Below are positions 20,033 through 40,596 of a DNA stretch of 64,000 nt, in pieces (the stretch's first letter is position 1; each line of letters starts with the position of its first letter). Made by a program: the position numbers and the translations under genes. Source of the stretch: Haloarcula pelagica (GTDB lineage Archaea; Halobacteriota; Halobacteria; Halobacteriales; Haloarculaceae); contig NZ_CP126164.1 of NCBI RefSeq assembly GCF_030127105.1, positions 124,001-188,000 of the forward strand, read 5' to 3'. The notes under the pieces are model-generated. The model had not been told where the DNA came from. It searched no databases and saw only the letters and a list, made by a program, of their open reading frames with translations.

Positions 20033-20686
20033 ATGGCCGTTATCACCGATATCGAAATCCCGGCTGACGAGTTCGCTCTCGGAAAACTCCTCGAACAGTA
20101 CCCAGATATCGACATCGAACTCGTTCGCGTCATCCCCCTTCGAGATGGAATCATGCCACTGTTTTGGGTCGAAGGCGCCGACCCCGACGAGATCGAAGCC
20201 ACGATCCGTGGCGACCCCTTGGCAGAGGAGATCGAACTGCTCACCGAAGCCGACGGACGGTACCTTTTCGAGATTCGCTGGGCCACCGAGGTTGACGCAC
20301 TCATCAAACCGATGATCGAGAGCCGTGCCGAAGTCCTGATCGCCGAAGGAAGTGCAAATCGCTGGTCCTTCCGCTTGCAGTTTGCAAACCGCTCAATGCT
20401 TGCCGACTTTCGCCAGCGATGCCAAGATAACGACATCCAATTCAGTCTGGAAGCACTGTACAACCCCACGGTTCCCGACGAGCCGGTGGAAGAGGGCGAT
20501 CTCAGTTCGCAACAATATGACCTTCTGGCTACTGCCCACCAGAACGGCTACTGGCACGTTCCCCGGGATATCGAACTCGGCGAGCTAGCAGATCTCATCG
20601 GCGTCAGTTCAAATGCGGCCTCACAGCGAATGCGTCGTGGTCTCGATACCGTCGTTGGTCAAGCGGTTGCCCGCAAACCGGACTGA
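20033..20686 (+). CDS. HTH-10 (bacterio-opsin-activator type) regulator, copy 1
   Basis: A 217-residue protein of the short haloarchaeal Bat-like class: an N-terminal sensory half (residues ~1-150; IEIPADEFALGKLLEQYP, IELVRVIPLRDGIMPLFWV) and a C-terminal HTH-10 domain (~160-210) ending in YWHVPRDIELGELADLIGVSS and the recognition helix AASQRMRRGLDTV. These proteins are transcription activators in haloarchaea; no PAS or GAF module is fused here, so the signal is unknown. A HalOD1 gene follows on the same strand. Six paralogues lie within 8.5 kb. Confidence 0.85.
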   Translation: MAVITDIEIPADEFALGKLLEQYPDIDIELVRVIPLRDGIMPLFWVEGADPDEIEATIRGDPLAEEIELLTEADGRYLFEIRWATEVDALIKPMIESRAEVLIAEGSANRWSFRLQFANRSMLADFRQRCQDNDIQFSLEALYNPTVPDEPVEEGDLSSQQYDLLATAHQNGYWHVPRDIELGELADLIGVSSNAASQRMRRGLDTVVGQAVARKPD

Positions 20687-20829
20687 TGCTACAGCTGTGA
20701 TCGATGGGCCTTCGTGGTCGCGCCGTCAGGAGGGGGCAATCAGCGTTCGGGGGTCAGATTTTCTCGGAGCTAATAAAGGCCGGTTGTGACAAAGGCATAG
20801 ACTATGACTGCTGTCAGCTATATTTGCAT

Positions 20830-21150
20830 ATGGACTCTCAAATAAGCAGAGTGAACACTGAGCACGACATCGAAGTGGGTGCAGACGGCAGTGTGCAGAC
20901 GCGGTTTAACGCTGATGACTCGCCAGCAGAGGAGGCAGTCTATGCGGTTGCAGCTCTCAAAGGTGTTGAGCCAACAGACCTCAACCCGCTGTATAACCTA
21001 ATTGACCCCGATGCAGTGGATGCACTGTTTGAGGGACCATTGGATGGCGGCGAGAATCCGGTCGTACTCATGTTTACGATGGCCGAGTGTCGCGTGGCAC
21101 TCCGAAGCGACAGAACCCTCTCCGTTCATCACACCGACGAGACCAGCTAA
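20830..21150 (+). CDS. HalOD1 output-domain protein, copy 1
   Basis: A 106-residue stand-alone HalOD1 (halobacterial output domain 1), from the ATG at 20830. The ORF upstream to 20704 lacks haloarchaeal character. Family marks are EEAVYAVAALKGVEPTDLNPLYNLIDPDAVDALF and the C-terminal beta strand CRVALRSDRTLSV. HalOD1 is known as an output module in haloarchaeal signalling, and here it is a single-domain protein. It follows the HTH-10 gene by ~145 bp and converges on the DUF7344-type gene at 21170. Confidence 0.8.
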   Translation: MDSQISRVNTEHDIEVGADGSVQTRFNADDSPAEEAVYAVAALKGVEPTDLNPLYNLIDPDAVDALFEGPLDGGENPVVLMFTMAECRVALRSDRTLSVHHTDETS

Positions 21151-21169
21151 CCGTTGGTCTGCGTGACAC

Positions 21170-21511
21170 TCAAATCCAGTCGTCGGGTAACTCATCGGCG
21201 TGATTCCGCATCAAATTCAACAGCGGGCGGAGCTCGTCGAACTTCGGGCCTTTGCGGACAGCGCTCTCTGCCTCGTTCCACTCAATCACTCCGGCGTCGA
21301 CCAGTTTCGGCAGGTGGGTGTGGGTCATGTGGACTTGGAGGTCAGCCAGTTCCTCGTCTTCGAGCGAGACATCGGCTGGGACTTGCGTGTCCTCGTCATC
21401 CTGCGGGTTGTGTTCGAGGAGAGCCAGTAACAGTCGTCGGCGGTACTTGTCTGCCATGAGGCTCAACAGAGTGTCCAGTGAGACTTTCGACCTAGAGTCA
21501 CTATCGTTCAT
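21170..21511 (-). CDS. ArsR-like winged helix (DUF7344-type), copy 1
   Basis: A 113-residue single wHTH protein. Diagnostic segments are LLSLMADKYRRRLLLALLEHNP, the recognition region MTHTHLPKLVDAGVIEWN and the conserved tail KGPKFDELRPLLNLM...ELPDDW. The family is haloarchaeal and small, and probably represses or activates nearby genes. It converges with the HalOD1 gene. Members of the same family occur at 27258, 29147 (broken), 39928 and 40597. Confidence 0.8.
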   Translation of the reverse strand: MNDSDSRSKVSLDTLLSLMADKYRRRLLLALLEHNPQDDEDTQVPADVSLEDEELADLQVHMTHTHLPKLVDAGVIEWNEAESAVRKGPKFDELRPLLNLMRNHADELPDDWI

Positions 21512-21575
21512 CTTGTCCGTTACTTAGCGAACAACTCAATTGAGCCCTCGGTGTTCGCATGCACCCACTATATTG

Positions 21576-21661
21576 CTATAGTAACAATTGAAACGATTTA
21601 CACACCGATCGCACCGTCGTCGTGCGGTCGGGTGTGCATTGATTTTCAATGGCTACTATAG
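21576..21661. mobile_element. 86-bp MITE-like imperfect palindrome
   Basis: The ends CTATAGTAACAATTGAAA and, inverted, CTATAGTAGCCATTGAAA enclose a second inverted pair (CACACC-GATCGCAC / GTGCGGTCGGGTGTG). The palindrome is flanked by near-identical 14-mers GTGTTCGCATGCAC (21551-21564) and GTGTTCGTACGCAC (21661-21674). A lone end (TATAGTAACCATTGA) occurs again near 28943-28957. It has no coding capacity, so it is probably a non-autonomous transposon relic. Confidence 0.55.
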
Positions 21662-21723
21662 TGTTCGTACGCACTCTCGTCGTTTGTGAGAACGGGAGGA
21701 TACCCCCACTGGGTTGCTGTGGG

Positions 21724-22371
21724 TTACGGGGTGGCCATGACCGTCGTGGCGAGGACCCGGTGGAGCCCGCGATTCAGCCGCCGTGAATAGGACTGGCGCG
21801 TGATGTCAACCGTCTCGGCCAGATTGGTCAGGTTGGTCTCGCGGGGCACCTTGAAGTAGCCCTCTGTGAACGCGAGTTCGACGGCCTTCCGCTGTTTACC
21901 AGTCAACCCGTACGGGTCGCCCTTCGGCCCGTGAGGGTTCCAGACGCCGATGATAGTGCTCGAAATCCCGGCTTCTCGTAGTGTCTCGCGGAAGGCCGAG
22001 AGGTTCTCGTGGTCGGGGCCGCGCAACCGAAACTCCCACTCCTCGGGTCCGCCGACTGCTTTCTCGACGACGAGGCTATGCTCGGTGAGTGCGTCCAGGA
22101 GTCCGTCGATGGGCCTCGCCCACTCGACCCGGAAGAGATACTTGCCGGGACCGTCGTCGAGTCGTTCGAGGGAAGCGACGCGGTCGTCACCCAGCACGGT
22201 CTCTTCGCATGACGACGGGTCGTCGGTCTCGACCCAGAAGTACGGCACGAGTTCGTCACCCGTCGGTACCAGTTGGGTCAATTCGATGTGGATGTCCCCG
22301 CTGTCGTGGAGGATCTGCCCGAGTTCAAGGTCGGCACTCGGAATCGTGAGGCGGACTTCGACGATACTCAT
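21724..22371 (-). CDS. HTH-10 regulator, copy 2
   Basis: A 215-residue protein from the ATG at 22371. The longer frame upstream runs through the structured RNA region and is rejected as coding. The N-terminal half contains LTIPSADLELGQILHDSGDIH and PYFWVETDDP, with HTH-10 at ~160-212 (GYFKVPRETNLTNLAETVDI). The upstream leader holds a copy of the three-hairpin element (22521-22617) about 150 nt before the start, behind a minus-strand TATA-like box at 22658-22665. Confidence 0.85.
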   Translation of the reverse strand: MSIVEVRLTIPSADLELGQILHDSGDIHIELTQLVPTGDELVPYFWVETDDPSSCEETVLGDDRVASLERLDDGPGKYLFRVEWARPIDGLLDALTEHSLVVEKAVGGPEEWEFRLRGPDHENLSAFRETLREAGISSTIIGVWNPHGPKGDPYGLTGKQRKAVELAFTEGYFKVPRETNLTNLAETVDITRQSYSRRLNRGLHRVLATTVMATP

Positions 22372-22520
22372 GGTATCGACCCCGGCGTCTCGATTCGCGT
22401 TGCTAGATGCAGGTGAGCATGGTCTATCGACTCGGACGGCGTGCCGGCGATATTCGACGCCGGGATGGTGAACGTGGTGGCTGGCATGGCTGGTGCGGAA
22501 CACGGTGGGGGGTGAGTGAT

Positions 22521-22617
22521 GTGTCCCGCGTGGCTGCCACGCGAAGAGAACAGGTGTTTCGCACGACCGGCAGACGCCGGTTCAAGCGACCCCTCGTCGG
22601 GGGCGAACACACAGTGC
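22521..22617 (-). ncRNA. three-hairpin structured element, copy A (97 nt)
   Basis: Read on the minus strand, the order is stem 1 (CCCC...GGGG, 22602-22590), linker GCTTGAA, stem 2 (ACCGGC-GTCT-GCCGGT, 22581-22566), linker with TTCTCTT, and stem 3 (CGCGTGG-CAG-CCACGCG, 22543-22527). Copies B and C keep the same order and length with different stem bases. The reading frame is not conserved among copies, which argues against a protein. A TATA-like TCATATACTT (22657-22666) lies ~40 bp before its 5' end. It is either an untranslated leader of the gene at 21724-22371 or a free small RNA. Confidence 0.65.
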
Positions 22618-22843
22618 GGCCTTGGGATTCCGTCTATCACATTTGTAGCCTGTATGTCATATACTTGTTGGTCCTACCTGTCCAAGCAGCGAATGAGCGT
22701 TTTCTCACGTACGCTGGTGGGCTATTCGAACGTTGCAACCGATTTCGGCAGAATCGAACAACTCCTCAGTGCTGAGTACCCGGTGCGGATACGGCAGATC
22801 CGGCTCTGAGGAGTGAGTCAGCGCGCGAAAGAAGTTTATAAAT

Positions 22844-22859
22844 ACCATCGACATCACTG
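22844..22859 (+). promoter_or_regulatory. 16-bp promoter motif ACCATCGACATCACTG, site 1
   Basis: An exact copy occurs at 28902-28917, and a related one on the minus strand at 24958-24941 (ACCATCTATATCACTGCC). Here it sits between TTTATAAAT and TTTTATGTA, ~100 bp before the HTH-10 ATG at 22959. Location next to TATA-like boxes of regulator-island genes suggests a shared activator site. Confidence 0.5.
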
Positions 22860-22958
22860 TTTTATGTATTAGTAACCGCCTGTCGTACGACACGCTAATG
22901 GACTGTTTGGTGGTTCCGACTGTGTTGCTTGACCCGACCGAGGAGGTCAGTTAGTGTC

Positions 22959-23633
22959 ATGAGCGTCGTTGCTCAATTCACCATTCCCGCGACCCAGTTC
23001 GTCCTCGGTGAGCTACTCGAAGTCGGGAGCGGGCCGGAAATACAACTCGAATCAGTAATCCCGACCGGTGACTCGGTCGTGCCCTACTTCTGGGTGGGCA
23101 ACGAGCACGCCGATGCCGTTCAGGTGGCACTCGAAGAGTCCGAGTTCGTCGACGAGGTAACGATTGTCGATTCCTCACAGTCAGAAACGCTGTTTCGCGT
23201 CGTGTGGAACAACGATGTCGATGGATTATTTGGACTTATCCGCGATACTGACGCTGCACTGTTAGAAGCCGAGGGCCTGGGTGACGACTGGGTCTTCCGG
23301 ATGCGGTTCTCCGAGCGTGAGTCACTTTCCGAGTTCTATCAGGCCTGCATCCAGAAGGGATTGACACCAGACTTAGAAGAAGTGAACAGCCCGTTCAGCT
23401 CAGCCGATACCAGCAGTTTCGGCGTCAGCGAGCCCCAGAGAGAGGTACTTCTCGCCGCCTTGGAGAAAGGGTACTTCGACGTTCCCCGGGAGATCAACCT
23501 TACCAACCTGGCCGAGGATCTGGACATCTCGGATACGGCAGCGTCACAGCGCATCAGGCGCGGAATGAACACGTTGCTGTCTGGCACGCTCGCTTCCCGT
23601 GAGAAGCGAGATCTGGACAGTGACGACGAGTAG
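22959..23633 (+). CDS. HTH-10 regulator, copy 3
   Basis: A 224-residue protein from the ATG at 22959. The N-terminal half has FTIPATQFVLGELLEVGSGP and PYFWVGNEHADAV; HTH-10 is at ~165-210 (GYFDVPREINLTNLAEDLDI, then SDTAASQRIRRGMNTL) with a charged tail (SREKRDLDSDDE). It is divergent from copy 2; the 590-bp gap carries RNA element A and the 16-bp motif. Confidence 0.85.
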   Translation: MSVVAQFTIPATQFVLGELLEVGSGPEIQLESVIPTGDSVVPYFWVGNEHADAVQVALEESEFVDEVTIVDSSQSETLFRVVWNNDVDGLFGLIRDTDAALLEAEGLGDDWVFRMRFSERESLSEFYQACIQKGLTPDLEEVNSPFSSADTSSFGVSEPQREVLLAALEKGYFDVPREINLTNLAEDLDISDTAASQRIRRGMNTLLSGTLASREKRDLDSDDE

Positions 23634-23893
23634 CTGATCGGTCCGCCAGTCACGGCTGTTGTGGAGTCTCGATGTCCAGTTACAGTTAATTAAGTTTACA
23701 GGAATGAACGCCGCTACTGGCACGCTCGATACAGGTTTATTATAACAGCCTTCTATATCACTGCATAGGCCGAATGTACGACGCGCGAAAATATTCTGGT
23801 GAGGTCAAACACTGGTTATGTCTCGATGAATAATCACAGTGTTCGAGGGAGGAGTGCTGTCGAACCGGACCCCGTGAGAGGTTGGGCAAGGAG

Positions 23894-24619
23894 ATGAGTC
23901 TCTTCGTCAACGTGGGTCTCTCGGTACCCGCTATCCCGCCCGGTGGTGTCGTTCCAATCCAAACGGACGTGACACTCGAACTCGAACGAGTCGTGCCGAC
24001 GGCAAGCGCAACACACTTTCTTTGGCTCGTCGGCGAGAACCACCAGCAATTTTTCGAGGGCCTCCGAGGCGAGTCTACTGTCGAGTCGATCACTGTACTC
24101 GACGAGTTCGACGACCGGCTGTTCGTTCGCCTCCACTGGACGGCCCTCGAGAATCCGTTTCTCGACCTGCTCGACGAGAGTGACGTGGTCCTCGTGGAAG
24201 CACGGGGAACGGCGGATGGGTGGGAGGCTACACTCCGATTTCCCGACGAAGCGGCACTCAGAACCTTCTACGAGGCCAGCGAACAGCGTGGACTCGGGGT
24301 CGAACTCCGTGCGATCAACGGTTCACGAATCGACGAGTCTGGGGACATGGACGCGCTCTCCCCCGTGCAACGGGAGACGCTCGAGGCCGCCTTCAGGGCC
24401 GGGTACTTCGACGTGCCACGGTCGATTACGATCGCCGAACTCGCAGCGCAACTCGACCGCTCAGAGCAAGCGGTCTCCGAAGCACTCCGGCGAGCGATGG
24501 CGAACTACCTGCAGACGACGCTGCAACAGGGAGACACTAGTGAGGCTGACGCTGACGACGAGGGCGAGGCGAGCGACGCCACATACTGCACGGATACCGA
24601 CACTAACGGCGACGGCTGA
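23894..24619 (+). CDS. HTH-10 regulator, copy 4
   Basis: A 241-residue protein from the ATG at 23894, preceded by AAGGAG, a good ribosome-binding site and unusual in this window where most starts look leaderless. The N-terminal half is the most divergent of the set (MSLFVNVGLSVPAIPPGG). HTH-10 is at ~165-215 (GYFDVPRSITIAELAAQLDR), and the tail is an acidic Asp/Glu stretch. It converges on the HalOD1 gene 24623-24895 with 3 bp between stops. Confidence 0.85.
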   Translation: MSLFVNVGLSVPAIPPGGVVPIQTDVTLELERVVPTASATHFLWLVGENHQQFFEGLRGESTVESITVLDEFDDRLFVRLHWTALENPFLDLLDESDVVLVEARGTADGWEATLRFPDEAALRTFYEASEQRGLGVELRAINGSRIDESGDMDALSPVQRETLEAAFRAGYFDVPRSITIAELAAQLDRSEQAVSEALRRAMANYLQTTLQQGDTSEADADDEGEASDATYCTDTDTNGDG

Positions 24620-24622
24620 TGC

Positions 24623-24895
24623 TTAAGTCTCGGTCGAGCCAGCGGATTCGACGGTCGGCTCTCGGACCTCGATATCGGTGGCCGACCGGACCCGGACCTC
24701 ATACCCTGCATACGAGAACAGAATCGTCGGGGGGGTCCGCTCCGCCGAATCAGCGCTCGCGTGTGTGTACATCGCATCCATTGCCTCAGCTTCAATCGCG
24801 TTTTGAAGCGGTGGCAGTGCCTGCGGATCAGCTCCCCTGGCTCGTGCGACCGCCTCGACGACGCGAACACTGACAGAAGTCTCTGGTTGACTCAT
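24623..24895 (-). CDS. HalOD1 output-domain protein, copy 2
   Basis: A 90-residue single HalOD1 domain: VSVRVVEAVARARGADP, LPPLQNAIEAEAMDAMY and the C-terminal strand YEVRVRSATDIEV. It is transcribed from a promoter near 24920-24960 in which a variant of the 16-bp motif (24941-24958, minus) lies just upstream of ATTTATATTT. It ends 3 bp from the convergent HTH-10 copy 4. Confidence 0.8.
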   Translation of the reverse strand: MSQPETSVSVRVVEAVARARGADPQALPPLQNAIEAEAMDAMYTHASADSAERTPPTILFSYAGYEVRVRSATDIEVREPTVESAGSTET

Positions 24896-24983
24896 TATTT
24901 TGAACTACTACCATTGGTTTAGCCCCCAACAAATATAAATGGCAGTGATATAGATGGTCGCCCGGTCGTTATATACGAGATAC

Positions 24984-26354
<1,371 letters not shown>

Positions 26355-27047
26355 TCAAGTATCCTCAGCAGTTGGTTTCGTGTCGTCAGTCGTCTCCTCC
26401 TGGCCGTGGGTGAGCGTCGCTCTGAGGAGGGCTGCGGTGCCTCGTGAGATTCGCTGTTTCGTCGCTGTGTCCGAGAGCCCCAGTTCAGCAGCGAGGTCGG
26501 TGAGGTTGATGTTCCGGGGCACGTCGTAATACCCCGCTTCGAGTGCGGTCATGAGCGCCTCTCGCTGTGCCTCGGTGATGTCGAACCCGAGCCCGAAAGT
26601 CTCGGGGATTCCAGGGTTGTGGATGGACTGAATATCGATCCGTATATCGCGGTCGACACACGCACGATAGAACGAAGAGAGGTCGTCGTGGTTGCGAAAA
26701 CGAAACGAGAACGTCCAGGTGTTGGCTTCCCCGACTCCTTCGATGATCGACCCATCTGCCGTTGCCAGTGCATCGAGGACCCCATCGATGTCCTCAGCCC
26801 ACTCGGCACGAACGAGCGTCTCACCGTCGGTCGAATCGAGAATTTCGAAGGAATCGATATCGTCGTCTACTTGGAGCGCGGCTTCGATAGCGTCGATACT
26901 GTCGTCCGATGCCCAGAAGTACGGGATGAACGTCGACCCGACGGGGATGACCCGTTCGAGGCGAACGCGAATGCCCGGATTCTCGCTGAGTGCCGAGTCG
27001 AGGACGAACGCATCCGCCGGGAGTTCAACGGTTGCGAGGACACTCAT
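26355..27047 (-). CDS. HTH-10 regulator, copy 5
   Basis: A 230-residue protein, start ATG at 27047. The N-terminal half has VELPADAFVLDSALSENPGI and PYFWASDDSID; HTH-10 is at ~165-215 (GYYDVPRNINLTDLAAELGL, SDTATKQRISRGTAALL) and the tail is acidic. Its stop lies immediately after the tnpB element, so the insertion just spared the gene. No RNA element of the 97-nt type is seen upstream. Confidence 0.85.
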   Translation of the reverse strand: MSVLATVELPADAFVLDSALSENPGIRVRLERVIPVGSTFIPYFWASDDSIDAIEAALQVDDDIDSFEILDSTDGETLVRAEWAEDIDGVLDALATADGSIIEGVGEANTWTFSFRFRNHDDLSSFYRACVDRDIRIDIQSIHNPGIPETFGLGFDITEAQREALMTALEAGYYDVPRNINLTDLAAELGLSDTATKQRISRGTAALLRATLTHGQEETTDDTKPTAEDT

Positions 27048-27122
27048 AGCTGTTCCCCCGCTCGGACTCGGTTGTAATTGTGTACCTGCCTCGCTGTTGT
27101 ATCGCTAATTGATATCTCGTGT

Positions 27123-27137
27123 GGCTCTGTCGAAATC
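27123..27137 (+). repeat. IS-end-like repeat GGCTCTGTCGAAATC, internal copy
   Basis: One mismatch to the repeats at 19787-19802 and 29654-29669. It lies in the 210-bp gap between HTH-10 copy 5 and the DUF7344-type gene, with no transposase nearby. Confidence 0.4.
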
Positions 27138-27257
27138 ATATTTTTGACACCTTTCTTGCCAGAATAGCCGTTAGGCAGGTTGGGGAAGGGTAATTAGAGA
27201 AATCACCAGTTTCAATGGATAATTTTGCGAGCGTACTGCATACATAGCGCGTATTTC

Positions 27258-27560
27258 TCACGGGTGGTTTGAGTGTTCCCCATGGTCATCCACCCATTCA
27301 AGAAGTGGCTGAATCTCACCGAACTGCGGTCCTTTGAAGACTTCGTTGGCGGGCCTGTCCCACTCGATGTAGCCGTAGTCTTCGAGTTTGGGCAGATGCG
27401 TGTGGTACATCATTATGTGCGCGTGTTTCTCGACGTCTGTCAGTGCTGACGCTCCCGTGGATGAGTTAACCTTCACATCCTGCGAATTCGATTCGAGAAA
27501 ATCGAGCAGGAATGTACGCCGCTGTTTGTGTGCGAGCGCGTTGAAGGCGTTGTCGTTCAT
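27258..27560 (-). CDS. ArsR-like winged helix (DUF7344-type), copy 2
   Basis: A 100-residue wHTH: FNALAHKQRRTFLLDFLESNS, the recognition part MMYHTHLPKLEDYGYIEWD, then KGPQFGEIQPLLEW. The ATG overlaps the TGA of the 56-residue fragment encoded at 27557-27727 (ATGA), so translation is coupled. It is slightly shorter than other family members. Confidence 0.75.
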   Translation of the reverse strand: MNDNAFNALAHKQRRTFLLDFLESNSQDVKVNSSTGASALTDVEKHAHIMMYHTHLPKLEDYGYIEWDRPANEVFKGPQFGEIQPLLEWVDDHGEHSNHP

Positions 27561-27727
27561 GTGTGGTCTCCCACTTGGGGGTTGTCTTGTGCAATGGCCA
27601 TGAGGATGCGACGCCGATACGGGTGTGTGAGGGCGTCAAACATCCGGTCCAGTCGTGAGTGGCTCCTGCCGTCCGTTCTTAACGGGGATTGGCCGGACTC
27701 ATTCACCGGTGGTGTTTTTTCAGTCAT
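27557..27727 (-). pseudogene. 56-residue N-terminal fragment of a DUF7344-type protein, coupled to the next gene
   Basis: The frame from the ATG at 27727 reads a polar leader, then LDRMFDALTHPYRRRILMAI and AQDNPQ, the first two helices of the DUF7344-type fold, and stops in a TGA that overlaps the ATG of 27258-27560. It repeats helices that the next protein also has, so it is not simply a split gene. It may be a remnant of a tandem duplication or a short regulator that dimerises with its neighbour. Confidence 0.55.
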
Positions 27728-27823
27728 GTGATGTTAGCACTGTTGCGGAATGCGTCGCTTTGTAAGTCTCACTGAACCAGAAGAGGTCGGCCACTCTTAG
27801 CTTTGATTTTGGGTATACAACCC

Positions 27824-28492
27824 TTATTTATGCCGCGGGCCTTCACCCTCCAGGGCGGTGAGTGTCTGACCGAGAATCTGGCGGATACCACGCCGGAGGC
27901 GAGAAGCGATCGCCTGTTGTGAGATTCCGAGTTCTTCTCCCAGTTCGGCCATCGTCACGTCGCGCGGTGAGTTGAAATATCCACGTTCGTAGGCCAGCAC
28001 CAGCGCCTCCAGCTGGGGGTCGGTGAGTGCGGCCTCGGTGGTAGTCTCGACCGGCGTCAGCGCGTGCAGGGCTGTCAGCGTCACCTGGATGTCGCGTTCC
28101 CGGCACCGCTGCTGAAACGTGGCGATATCGCTTCGCTGGTCTCCGCGGACCTCGAAGGTCCACTGGTCGTTCGTCCCGATCGCCGTGATGAGCGGTATCT
28201 CCGTCTCGCCGAGCGTGCTGAGTATCCCCTCGTACTTCGGGTTCCACTCAACGCGCAGGAGGTATTCGTCTTCGACGGAGTCTATCAATCGAATAGCCTT
28301 CACGCCGGGATGTGTCGAGAAGGCTGCCTCGACGTCCTCGACATCGACACCTCGGACCCAGAAGTACGGAATGATCACGCCCTTGCGCGGGACGATGCGC
28401 TCCAGTTCGACCGTCACGCCCGGCACAGACGCGAAGATCGACCCCAAGGGGAACTCGTCGGGCGGGACCGTAAACGTCGCCTCGGTAGCCAT
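27824..28492 (-). CDS. HTH-10 regulator, copy 6
   Basis: A 222-residue protein from the ATG at 28492 (TTG/other upstream starts rejected). The N-terminal half has FTVPPDEFPLGSIFASVPGV and PYFWVRGVDVEDV; HTH-10 is at ~160-212 (GYFNSPRDVTMAELGEELGI, SQQAIASRLRRGIRQIL). The long upstream region contains RNA element copy B (28680-28776), whose 5' end lies ~25 bp after a minus-strand TATA-like box at 28797-28804. Confidence 0.85.
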   Translation of the reverse strand: MATEATFTVPPDEFPLGSIFASVPGVTVELERIVPRKGVIIPYFWVRGVDVEDVEAAFSTHPGVKAIRLIDSVEDEYLLRVEWNPKYEGILSTLGETEIPLITAIGTNDQWTFEVRGDQRSDIATFQQRCRERDIQVTLTALHALTPVETTTEAALTDPQLEALVLAYERGYFNSPRDVTMAELGEELGISQQAIASRLRRGIRQILGQTLTALEGEGPRHK

Positions 28493-28679
28493 ATCCAAAC
28501 CATCGGCCCGCGTCGAAAAAGACCTGTGCACCGATGCGAGTCTCTCTGAGAGGATTATCCAGCAATATTGCGTACTCCTGGCTCGTCGTGACCACCGATT
28601 CGCGCTGTGTTATCGACACGGTTCCCGAGAACATCAACGCAATCTGGTAGAAGCTACAGCGATTCTTTCACAGGCATTT

Positions 28680-28776
28680 GTGTCCCGCGCGGCGGCCACG
28701 CGAAGAGAAACGAGGAACGGTTGGACCGACCAACCGTTTTCAAGCAGTCCCTTCATGATCGGGACTGAACACAGGG
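28680..28776 (-). ncRNA. three-hairpin structured element, copy B (97 nt)
   Basis: On the minus strand: stem 1 GTCCC...GGGAC (28765-28747), linker GCTTGAA, stem 2 with nine pairs (AACGGTTGG-N5-CCAACCGTT, 28738-28716), TTTCTCTT, stem 3 CGCGTGG-CCG-CCGCGCG (28702-28686; one U-G wobble). Stem bases differ from copy A but pairing is kept. The spacing to its TATA-like box puts the predicted transcription start at or near the element's first base. It is upstream of HTH-10 copy 6. Confidence 0.65.
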
Positions 28777-28901
28777 ATGGACCTGCTATTCCAACTTTAA
28801 TAATTGTCGATACAGACGCATACATCTGCCGGTCGGTGTGGTGTCATTCGCAAGCAATCGTGGATACCTCGTCGACACCGCCAATATGGGGTATTGAAAA
28901 G

Positions 28902-30274: not shown

Positions 30275-31356
30275 ATGGCAAGTTCATTAGATTCCCGAGA
30301 TGATTCTCTGAGTTCGCATAGCCCAACTCAGGAATGTACAGGGCGGCAGGCTGCACCGGACATCGGCGATGAGATCTCCCGAGCCCGCAGCGCGGAGTAC
30401 GTGGCGTTCCTGTCTCGACACCCGTTCGCGACGGACGCATTTGAAGCAGGCTTCGTGACTGGGGTCCGTGAAGACTGTAGCCTGCAAACAGGGGCCCTTC
30501 GAAACGTCGACATCCCGATACTGATGTTAGATAACGACTTCAAAAATCCTAATCTAGAACGGTACGTCTCGCGATTTCGGGAGATCGAGCCTGAAATTGG
30601 GGTGGTCGGGGACGCTCGTTCAGCGGAGGAAGCATACATCACTGTTGACGCGGTCCGTAAGCTGAAAACAGAGTATCCAGACTCAACGCTCATCATAGTC
30701 CCAAAATGCCACGAAGCAATCGATATCATCGGTTCCGCCGACGTACCGGGCACGGAGATTGTACTGGGCTACTCGATGGGATATTCAGATATCCTGGCCT
30801 CTGACTTCTCGGACTACTCGGACTGGCGTGGACGGCGTGTACACCTGCTGGAGCAAGCCCGACCAAACAGTGGGAGGTGATTCAGCTACTGACATCGCCA
30901 ACGCTGTTCGGCGATCCACCTGCAGACATCGTCGGGTTAGATTGGAACGGTGCGCACAAAGTCGCCTACATGGGTGAGTCTTGGAGTCGAGAAGGCTGGC
31001 AACGAAGCGACCATCTCTCCATCAGGGAAACCGTGAAGAAGAGCCTTCGTGAGATGCGCATGTTCTGGAAAGAACGCGGTGTCTGGCCTCGTGAGGGGAC
31101 GACCCCAGTTGACCGTTTAGGTCAAGCCGTCCAGGTGCCAGACGATGAGGTGTTTGCAAACGGAATGCACATCTCTGAAGTGGGTGACTACGAGGGCCCA
31201 GATGATTGGGAGGACCGACTTGACCCCGAAGACGATGAGACGCTACCACTCGAACATGCAATCGTCAACCAGTATACTGATGGCAGTATACGGGCATTTC
31301 GCTCGGAAACCGAGCGGGCATTCATCGAATACCACGAGGGCTTGATTACGTCATAG
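30275..31356 (+). pseudogene. DUF6610-like protein, split by one frameshift
   Basis: Two overlapping frames (30275-30880 and 30877-31356) together make one ~360-residue protein. The first ends VHLLEQARPNSGR, while the next frame reads GASPTKQWEVIQLLTSPTLFG across the same DNA. Adding one G after CTGCTG at ~30850 would join HLL to GASPTKQW. The second half (DIVGLDWNGAHKVAYMGESW, KSLREMRMFWKERGVWP) resembles the haloarchaeal DUF6610 family of unknown function. Genuine decay or a sequencing error are both possible. Confidence 0.65.
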
Positions 31357-39927: not shown

Positions 39928-40269
39928 TTACGGCCAGTCGGCTGGTAACTTGTCGGCATTGTCGTCCAACAACTGGAGGAGCGGTGCGATGTCGTGGAAG
40001 TTCGGTCCCCGCCGAATCGTCTCCGCCTCGGGATTCCAGTCGATATACCCCTTCTCAGCCAGTTTGGGCAGGTGAGAATGGAGCAATTGCACTTCCAGCC
40101 GTTCGGGGCCGGCTTCATCTTCAGAGACGGGCGCGAACTGGTTCCGGGTGAATTCGGTTATCTCACATGGATTGTGGTCGGAGATGGCGACGAGGATTCG
40201 TCGGCGATACGGGTTCCGTAGGGCGTCGAACATCACGTTGAGTGACGCCGAGTCGATGTTTTGCGGCAT
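39928..40269 (-). CDS. ArsR-like winged helix (DUF7344-type), copy 4
   Basis: A 113-residue protein from the ATG at 40269: LNVMFDALRNPYRRRILVAI, LLHSHLPKLAEKGYIDWN, RRGPNFHDIAPLLQLLDDNA and a LPADW end. An upstream in-frame stretch to 40509 has no start of its own and coincides with the structured element; it is rejected as coding. RNA element copy C ends 40 nt before this start. Confidence 0.8.
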   Translation of the reverse strand: MPQNIDSASLNVMFDALRNPYRRRILVAISDHNPCEITEFTRNQFAPVSEDEAGPERLEVQLLHSHLPKLAEKGYIDWNPEAETIRRGPNFHDIAPLLQLLDDNADKLPADWP

Positions 40270-40309
40270 ACTGGTGGCTCGTAGTGCGGAACGCTGAGAC
40301 TCGCTAATG

Positions 40310-40408
40310 CGTTCCGCGTGACGACCACACGAAGAAAAACGGGTGTATCTGCACGTCCGGCACACCGGTTCAAGCGCCCCTTCATCGTCAGGGACAAACG
40401 CACAGTGT
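40310..40408 (-). ncRNA. three-hairpin structured element, copy C (99 nt)
   Basis: On the minus strand: stem 1 CCCT...AGGG (40393-40378), linker GCTTGAA, stem 2 CCGG-TGTG-CCGG (40368-40357), TTTTCTT, stem 3 CGTGTGG-TCG-TCACGCG (40331-40315) with two G-U wobbles. Read on the plus strand, stem 3 would have C-A mismatches at the same positions. A TATA-like box (GTATATAAAA, plus-strand letters, 40445-40454) lies ~37 bp before its 5' end. It leads into the DUF7344-type gene at 39928-40269. Confidence 0.65.
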
Positions 40409-40596
40409 GAAACTGTTATTCCGTACAATAACTTGACACCGAGCGTATATAAAAATGGTGTAGACCAAGTGTTCTTATCCATGCTGGAAGCAGGGAACAA
40501 GTAAAACATTCATTGTCTGAACCCGGCGATAATGCGCATAAGACCCGGGATTAATCTTGAAGGAAGGTTTATTGAGATTTGTTGTCAACTCGTTCC

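Follow-up and report, generated by a model that had tools for sequence, protein, structure and literature searches.

Results

The locus

The genome of Haloarcula pelagica comprises 4.46 Mb in four contigs, and the window analyzed here is the 64,000-nucleotide stretch at positions 124001-188000 of contig C4. Its minus strand carries three copies, A, B and C, of a structured element that had been reported from the sequence alone and that we recovered by both alignment and covariance models. The copies are members of an apparently undescribed family of folded leader RNAs of about 160 nucleotides. Their parts are listed below in window positions (P1 to P5, helices; Px, a competing hairpin; R1 and R2, the first and second covariance models).

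Copy A
22655-22663, minus: TATA-like box, TATATGACA, assigned by position; a TATA box lies at fixed spacing in 59 non-redundant leaders
22627-22633, minus: predicted RNA 5' end and 5' strand of P1, ACGGAAT; the start at A 22633 is inferred from the TATA spacing
22518-22615, minus: core (R1 99.8 bits, R2 95.6 bits)
22605-22611 with 22520-22526, minus: P2
22588-22604, minus: P3
22577-22587 (GCTTGAACCGG) and 22544-22551 (GTTCTCTT), minus: P4
22527-22543, minus: P5
22496-22501, minus: 3' strand of P1, GTTCCG, also within the 3' strand of Px (GTGTTCCGC with GCGGGACAC)
22368-22487, minus: short open reading frame of 39 aa, ending in a TGA that shares bases with the HTH_10 start codon (ATGA)
21724-22371, minus: downstream gene, BAT-HTH_10 regulator (PF15915, E 9.8e-15; PF04967, E 7.7e-12)

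Copy B
28788-28794, minus: equivalent of the 5' strand of P1, TTGGAAT
28677-28777, minus: core (R2 84.1 bits); the 3' strand of P1 is absent downstream
28767-28773 with 28679-28685, minus: P2
28746-28766, minus: P3
28730-28745 and 28703-28710, minus: P4
28686-28702, minus: P5
27824-28492, minus: downstream gene, BAT-HTH_10 regulator, with its ATG 184 nt 3' of the core rather than about 36

Copy C
40444-40455, minus: TATA box, TTTTTATATACG
40418-40424, minus: predicted RNA 5' end and 5' strand of P1, ACGGAAT, with the predicted start at A 40424
40306-40406, minus: core (R2 83.3 bits)
40396-40402 with 40308-40314, minus: P2
40376-40395, minus: P3
40365-40375 and 40332-40339, minus: P4
40315-40331, minus: P5
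40287-40292, minus: 3' strand of P1, GTTCCG, also in Px (GCGTTCCGC with GCGGAACGC)
39928-40269, minus: downstream gene, DUF7344 regulator of 113 aa, with its ATG 36 nt 3' of the core

Copy B is partly degraded or recombined: it keeps P2 to P5, and has lost the 3' strand of P1 and the usual spacing to the gene. In the host genome, all confident matches are on C4; contig C1, of 3.5 Mb, has none. A fourth plasmid copy is located at C4:97490. The last 44.4 kb of C4 duplicate its first 44.4 kb (C4:1-44390; window 23018-64000 and onward) with 99.95% identity, which looks like an uncut assembly overlap of a circular plasmid of approximately 147 kb. Because of this terminal repeat, the further matches at C4:5659 and C4:17294 are copies B and C again. 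The genome has 28 DUF7344 and 42 HTH_10 domain hits, some of them double-counted in the contig overlap, and only four true leader loci; thus, belonging to these protein families does not entail having the leader.

Two further features of the region should be mentioned. A dense cluster of BAT-HTH_10 genes spans window positions 20033-28492 (20033-20686, 21724-22371, 22929-23633, 23882-24619, 26355-27047 and 27824-28492); it also holds a HalOD1 gene (20704-21150) and is broken by a TnpB/Cas12f1-like gene (25100-26353). In addition, DUF6610 is encoded in two overlapping frames, 30275-30880 and 30877-31356 (30275-31356 overall), which is likely to be a frameshift.

A four-way junction supported by covariation

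Single-sequence folds of copies A and C showed no clear gain in stability over shuffled sequences, with modest z-scores and competing folds. Since folding of single copies is indecisive, we relied on comparative evidence. The sequence-only reading had described three stems, the bases of which change together. The stems are real, and the co-variation of stems 1 and 3 among the three copies is borne out, as is stem 2 in the form in which it was quoted (ACCGGC/GCCGGT in A, AACGGTTGG/CCAACCGTT in B and CCGG/CCGG in C). The description was incomplete, however, in that it missed two helices, the closing stem P2 and the outer helix P1. P2 pairs TGTGTTC with GGACACA in A and B, and TGCGTTT with GAACGCA in C, a compensatory change. 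Hairpins P3, P4 and P5 lie inside P2, and the four helices P2/P3/P4/P5 meet in a tight four-way junction with almost zero linker. The length of 97-99 nt given for the element also falls short, as the unit extends from the promoter to the start codon.

The pair statistics were derived from an alignment of 83 matches (A5). We found standard pairs in 91.9% of the pair cells, and a double (compensatory) change in 24 of the 27 core pairs. None of the 500 shuffles reached any of the five pairing measures, and partners that were slid along the alignment were only 36-54% paired. Covariation was further compared to a tree-aware null, in which a G-test with APC was applied and substitutions were re-placed on a FastTree tree in 60 simulated alignments; this was done with our own script and not with R-scape. 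Six pairs inside the proposed structure were significant, namely, two in P2, two in P3, and one each in P4 and P5. The expectation that covariation would hold up in a larger alignment is therefore met under shuffles, slid partners and the tree-aware null. It should be noted that an alignment fitted to a model is biased towards the proposed structure.

The GCTTGAA and TTCTCTT blocks, previously read as single-stranded, are in fact opposed to each other and form the base of P4, the middle stem. At this base, 75 of 77 sequences have a standard pair at position 42-85, for the most part G.U, A-U or G-C. Position 43-84, the C of GCUUGAA with a U of UUCUCUU, has the second-highest covariation of all column pairs, being C.U, U.C, A-U or G.U, with the two bases changing together. 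In the diverged members L068, L055, L059, L075, L077, L056 and L095, standard pairs occur in place of the three pyrimidine mismatches, and in four of these (L068, L075, L077, L095) the base of P4 is fully paired by Watson-Crick or G.U pairs. With the two blocks facing each other, P4 begins directly at the junction. One locus has a P4 insert (L030:1501-1649) that contains CTGTCTCTTATACACATCT and its complement flanking an N; it looks like a sequencing-library transposase adapter left over in the assembly, not biology.

Promoter, outer helix and start codon

In 59 non-redundant upstream regions anchored on the motif ACGGAAC, a TATA box occupies positions -30 to -26, counted from the C of this motif, and a BRE-like sequence precedes it at positions -38 to -33. 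The spacing between the TATA box and the transcript start is regular in archaea, and on account of this ordinary spacing we place the start at or beside the near-invariant A of ACGGAAC, about 27 nt past the TATA box; this position is inferred. The outer helix P1 joins CGGAAC to GUUCCG, which lies about 13 nt 3' of the core and usually 17-20 nt 5' of the AUG. P1 has covariant forms, UGAAAU/AUUUCA (L038), AGAAC/GUUCU (L092, L093) and GGGAC/GUCCC (L055, L059), and none of 2000 shuffles paired as well. No P1 pair is significant under the tree-aware null, so the support for P1 is weaker than that for P2 to P5. An additional helix between P1 and P2 was sought by eye, and no consistent one was found.

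At most of the 78 distinct loci, a start codon on the same strand follows 24-42 nt past the core. We did not find a Shine-Dalgarno stretch before this AUG. The remark that the reading frame is not kept among the copies holds for the family at large: core lengths range between 80 and 149 nt, and the frames of P5 relative to an AUG common in the P3 loop are split 21/17/7 (45 sequences). These same mixed frames and core lengths led us to reject a conserved peptide starting at the P3-loop AUG.

Distribution of the leader

The first covariance model (R1), which was built from six sequences, had matches in 34 of the 391 Halobacteria genomes searched, the best E-value being 1e-22, and recovered dozens of further copies, which places the leader far beyond chance. 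The second model (R2), applied to five families, matched 15/146, 15/170, 15/125, 10/28 and 1/9 genomes. With the third model (R3), the leader was detected in 39 of the 391 genomes and in 25 of 86 genera. In a phylum-wide draw of 295 genomes, three had the leader, every one of them haloarchaeal and already seen. A sensitive BLAST search of plasmids located the element in Halorussus, Halosimplex, Salinirubellus and Haloprofundus, where a few dozen bases separate it in every case from a downstream gene of the same orientation. Named haloarchaea were retrieved with a DNA pattern and then confirmed by the covariance model; the named carriers of the leader include Halorussus limi, Halosimplex aquaticum, Haloprofundus and Natrinema.

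Several candidates were discarded. Pattern matches in Phenylobacterium, Achromobacter, Rubrivivax and Acidobacteria fail the covariance model; an Izemoplasmatales contig that scored 21.8 bits is probably a chance match; and hit H5, from Haladaptatus, is confined to a short segment inside an annotated gene, with the remainder of the element absent. Viral contigs scanned with two patterns yielded no match to the leader.

The family also appears to lack a name, as the sequence-only reading had supposed. Nothing in the whole window reached the gathering score of any Rfam 15 family. When four homologue loci were compared to Rfam at E<=10, the leader remained unmatched, and a single sub-threshold miRNA match fell outside it. 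We found neither a described haloarchaeal motif of this type nor a paper on DUF7344 in the open literature; non-open papers and preprints were outside this search.

Downstream genes

The proposal that a structured RNA lies between a TATA-like box and genes of the HTH_10 or DUF7344 type is supported by the association of promoter and gene across dozens of genomes. Among 74 downstream proteins scanned, we detected DUF7344 in 31, BAT in 19, HTH_10 in 19, HalOD1 in 2 and HisKA in 2, along with small DUF7542-like proteins. When loci with frame-broken copies are included, approximately 40 of 78 encode DUF7344 proteins, 22-23 BAT-HTH_10 and 7 DUF7542-like proteins (assigned by hand). The DUF7344 proteins, which are winged helices, thus account for about half of the downstream genes. 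No ribosomal protein genes were found among the downstream genes scanned. The genes served by the leader are mostly regulators from unrelated families, and are largely plasmid-borne. The leader tree, which is poorly resolved, requires at least 14 changes of gene family, the minimum possible number being 5; hence, the leader and its promoter appear to move between gene families. Taken together, the data reveal a covariation-supported RNA structure that, across Halobacteria, occupies a fixed place ahead of regulator genes, between a promoter-like sequence and their start codon.

Some peculiarities of the genes deserve a note. In several BAT-HTH_10 cases (window 22368-22487, L060, L062, L030, L066, L069, L078, L095), the usual AUG after the leader opens a short reading frame of 34-42 codons, the stop of which overlaps the HTH_10 start (by ATGA, GTGA or more), an arrangement that suggests translational coupling. 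Near the start of some DUF7344 genes there are A-runs of 5, 7 or 10 (L024, L081/L121, L061/L065/L122, L027), with the gene body in the same wrong frame, and in L035, L114 and L033 the start is in frame; programmed slippage, phase variation and decay are all possible. One distinct leader clade precedes genes for small proteins (about 63 aa; motif RIVCTEC.FSK) that have only a weak likeness to DUF7542 (E 0.003-0.005; L034, L038, L039, L073, L074, L076, L079).

A competing hairpin

Folding of the whole leader brought out a hairpin, Px, in which GCGGRACRC, at the end of P5/P2, is paired to GYGUUCCGC in the region of the P1 3' strand. All nine pairs can form in 20 of 77 sequences, including A and C, and at least eight of the nine in 40 of 77. 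Formation of Px excludes both P1 and P2. The covariation of Px is weak (39 of 2000 shuffles are as good), and Px is broken in DUF7542-type leaders that retain P1. These observations suggest Px as a candidate expression platform, that is, a switch; this has not been shown, and may hold only in some clades.

Discussion

Functional interpretation

We conclude that the family probably represents cis-acting 5' leader RNAs of haloarchaea that gate translation, with the reservation that both transcription and the effect on expression are inferred, as no transcript data are available. In the proposed mechanism, the first seven nucleotides of the mRNA would pair with GUUCCG upstream of the AUG to form P1, and the leader would gate the access of the ribosome to the AUG; the gating is inferred from the presence of a start codon without a Shine-Dalgarno sequence. 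With P1 and P2 formed, the 5' end of the mRNA would be held beside the initiation region. If P2 opens, its 3' strand could join the 3' strand of P1 in the Px hairpin just 5' of the AUG, an inferred step that would not apply to all clades. The proposal leaves undetermined which state is 'on' and whether the trigger is a protein, ions or a small molecule. Since the leader is common to regulator families with no relation to one another, a shared signal is more likely than autoregulation within one family. A tentative reading of these features, possible but not established, is that of a haloarchaea-specific, riboswitch-like sensor: a four-way junction closed by the 5' end of the mRNA that gives up P1 and P2 in exchange for a hairpin at the AUG and has spread among unrelated regulators, often on plasmids. 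If this is true, one signal controls a set of regulators.

Two other accounts of a cis-acting leader appear unlikely, and neither can be set aside. The fold might be constitutive, guarding the 5' end of the mRNA (P1 against 5'-end-dependent decay) or aiding translation start without any sensing. This would fit with P1 holding the predicted 5' end and persisting in clades without Px, and with the reuse of the leader across many gene families; however, a hairpin that protects an end needs neither a four-way junction with closing stems nor a conserved P4 base, and the genes involved are almost all regulators and not highly expressed genes. With about the same low likelihood, a single conserved RNA-binding protein, which could itself come from the regulator network, might bind at the junction and block or free the AUG. 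Such a protein would explain the conservation of the junction and of the P4 base, as well as the clustering with regulator genes, and this account overlaps with our main proposal of a gating leader, differing in that it names the signal. Simple autoregulation by the encoded protein is nevertheless a poor fit given the unrelated proteins downstream, and the 28 DUF7344 and 42 HTH_10 domain hits of the host stand against four real leader loci.

It is also conceivable, but quite improbable, that the leader yields a stand-alone, trans-acting small RNA with a length of about 100 nt, either by processing or through transcription starting inside it. The compact fold, with the core shut by P2, is compatible with such an RNA, whereas the conservation reaches out to P1, the 3' strand of which lies at a near-fixed distance from the AUG (no search for a terminator or a second promoter was performed). 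Still harder to sustain is the view that the element acts as DNA and not as RNA, either as inverted repeats for a transcription factor or as a MITE-type mobile repeat. Its plasmid location, the several copies per replicon, and the arms ACGGAAC and GTTCCG as possible half-sites could be cited in favor of this view. Nonetheless, the stems change in a compensatory manner, including one-sided changes to G.U, and the copies are strongly divergent, have a single orientation and keep a fixed position between promoter and start codon. Near-identical copies at unrelated positions, as expected of a MITE, were not met; what we observe are divergent copies at a fixed site 5' of genes.

Comparison with known systems

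The leader family is present in roughly one-tenth of the haloarchaeal genomes sampled, in a group where regulatory leaders with a defined structure are considered rare; it marks regulators of unknown role (DUF7344, DUF7542-like), and it offers a system in which RNA-level control can be tested in the absence of a Shine-Dalgarno sequence and in a molar-salt cytoplasm. Genome-wide mapping of transcript starts in Haloferax volcanii identified 72% of transcripts as leaderless, and structured leaders were judged untypical of haloarchaea (PMC4983044). The leaders described here resemble the long 5' UTRs of that species in belonging to leadered mRNAs, of comparable length, that have no Shine-Dalgarno sequence, but differ in that a conserved structured leader is common to 25 of the 86 genera sampled.

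Few cis-regulatory RNAs are known in archaea (PMC7247131). The archaeal ribosomal-protein leaders, including the S15 leader of Halobacteria (PMC7247131), are similar to the present family as covariation-supported haloarchaeal leaders discovered by comparison; in contrast, the four-way-junction leader does not precede ribosomal protein genes and serves several unrelated families. As of 2021, the fluoride riboswitch of Thermococcus kodakarensis was the sole natural archaeal riboswitch determined experimentally (PMC8241225). With riboswitches such as this one, the haloarchaeal leader shares a structured 5' leader, a conserved junction ahead of the start codon and, possibly, an alternative helix by the AUG. 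Unlike them, it has no Rfam match or known ligand, its fold is much larger, and it is associated with genes for regulators instead of fluoride exporters or metabolic genes.
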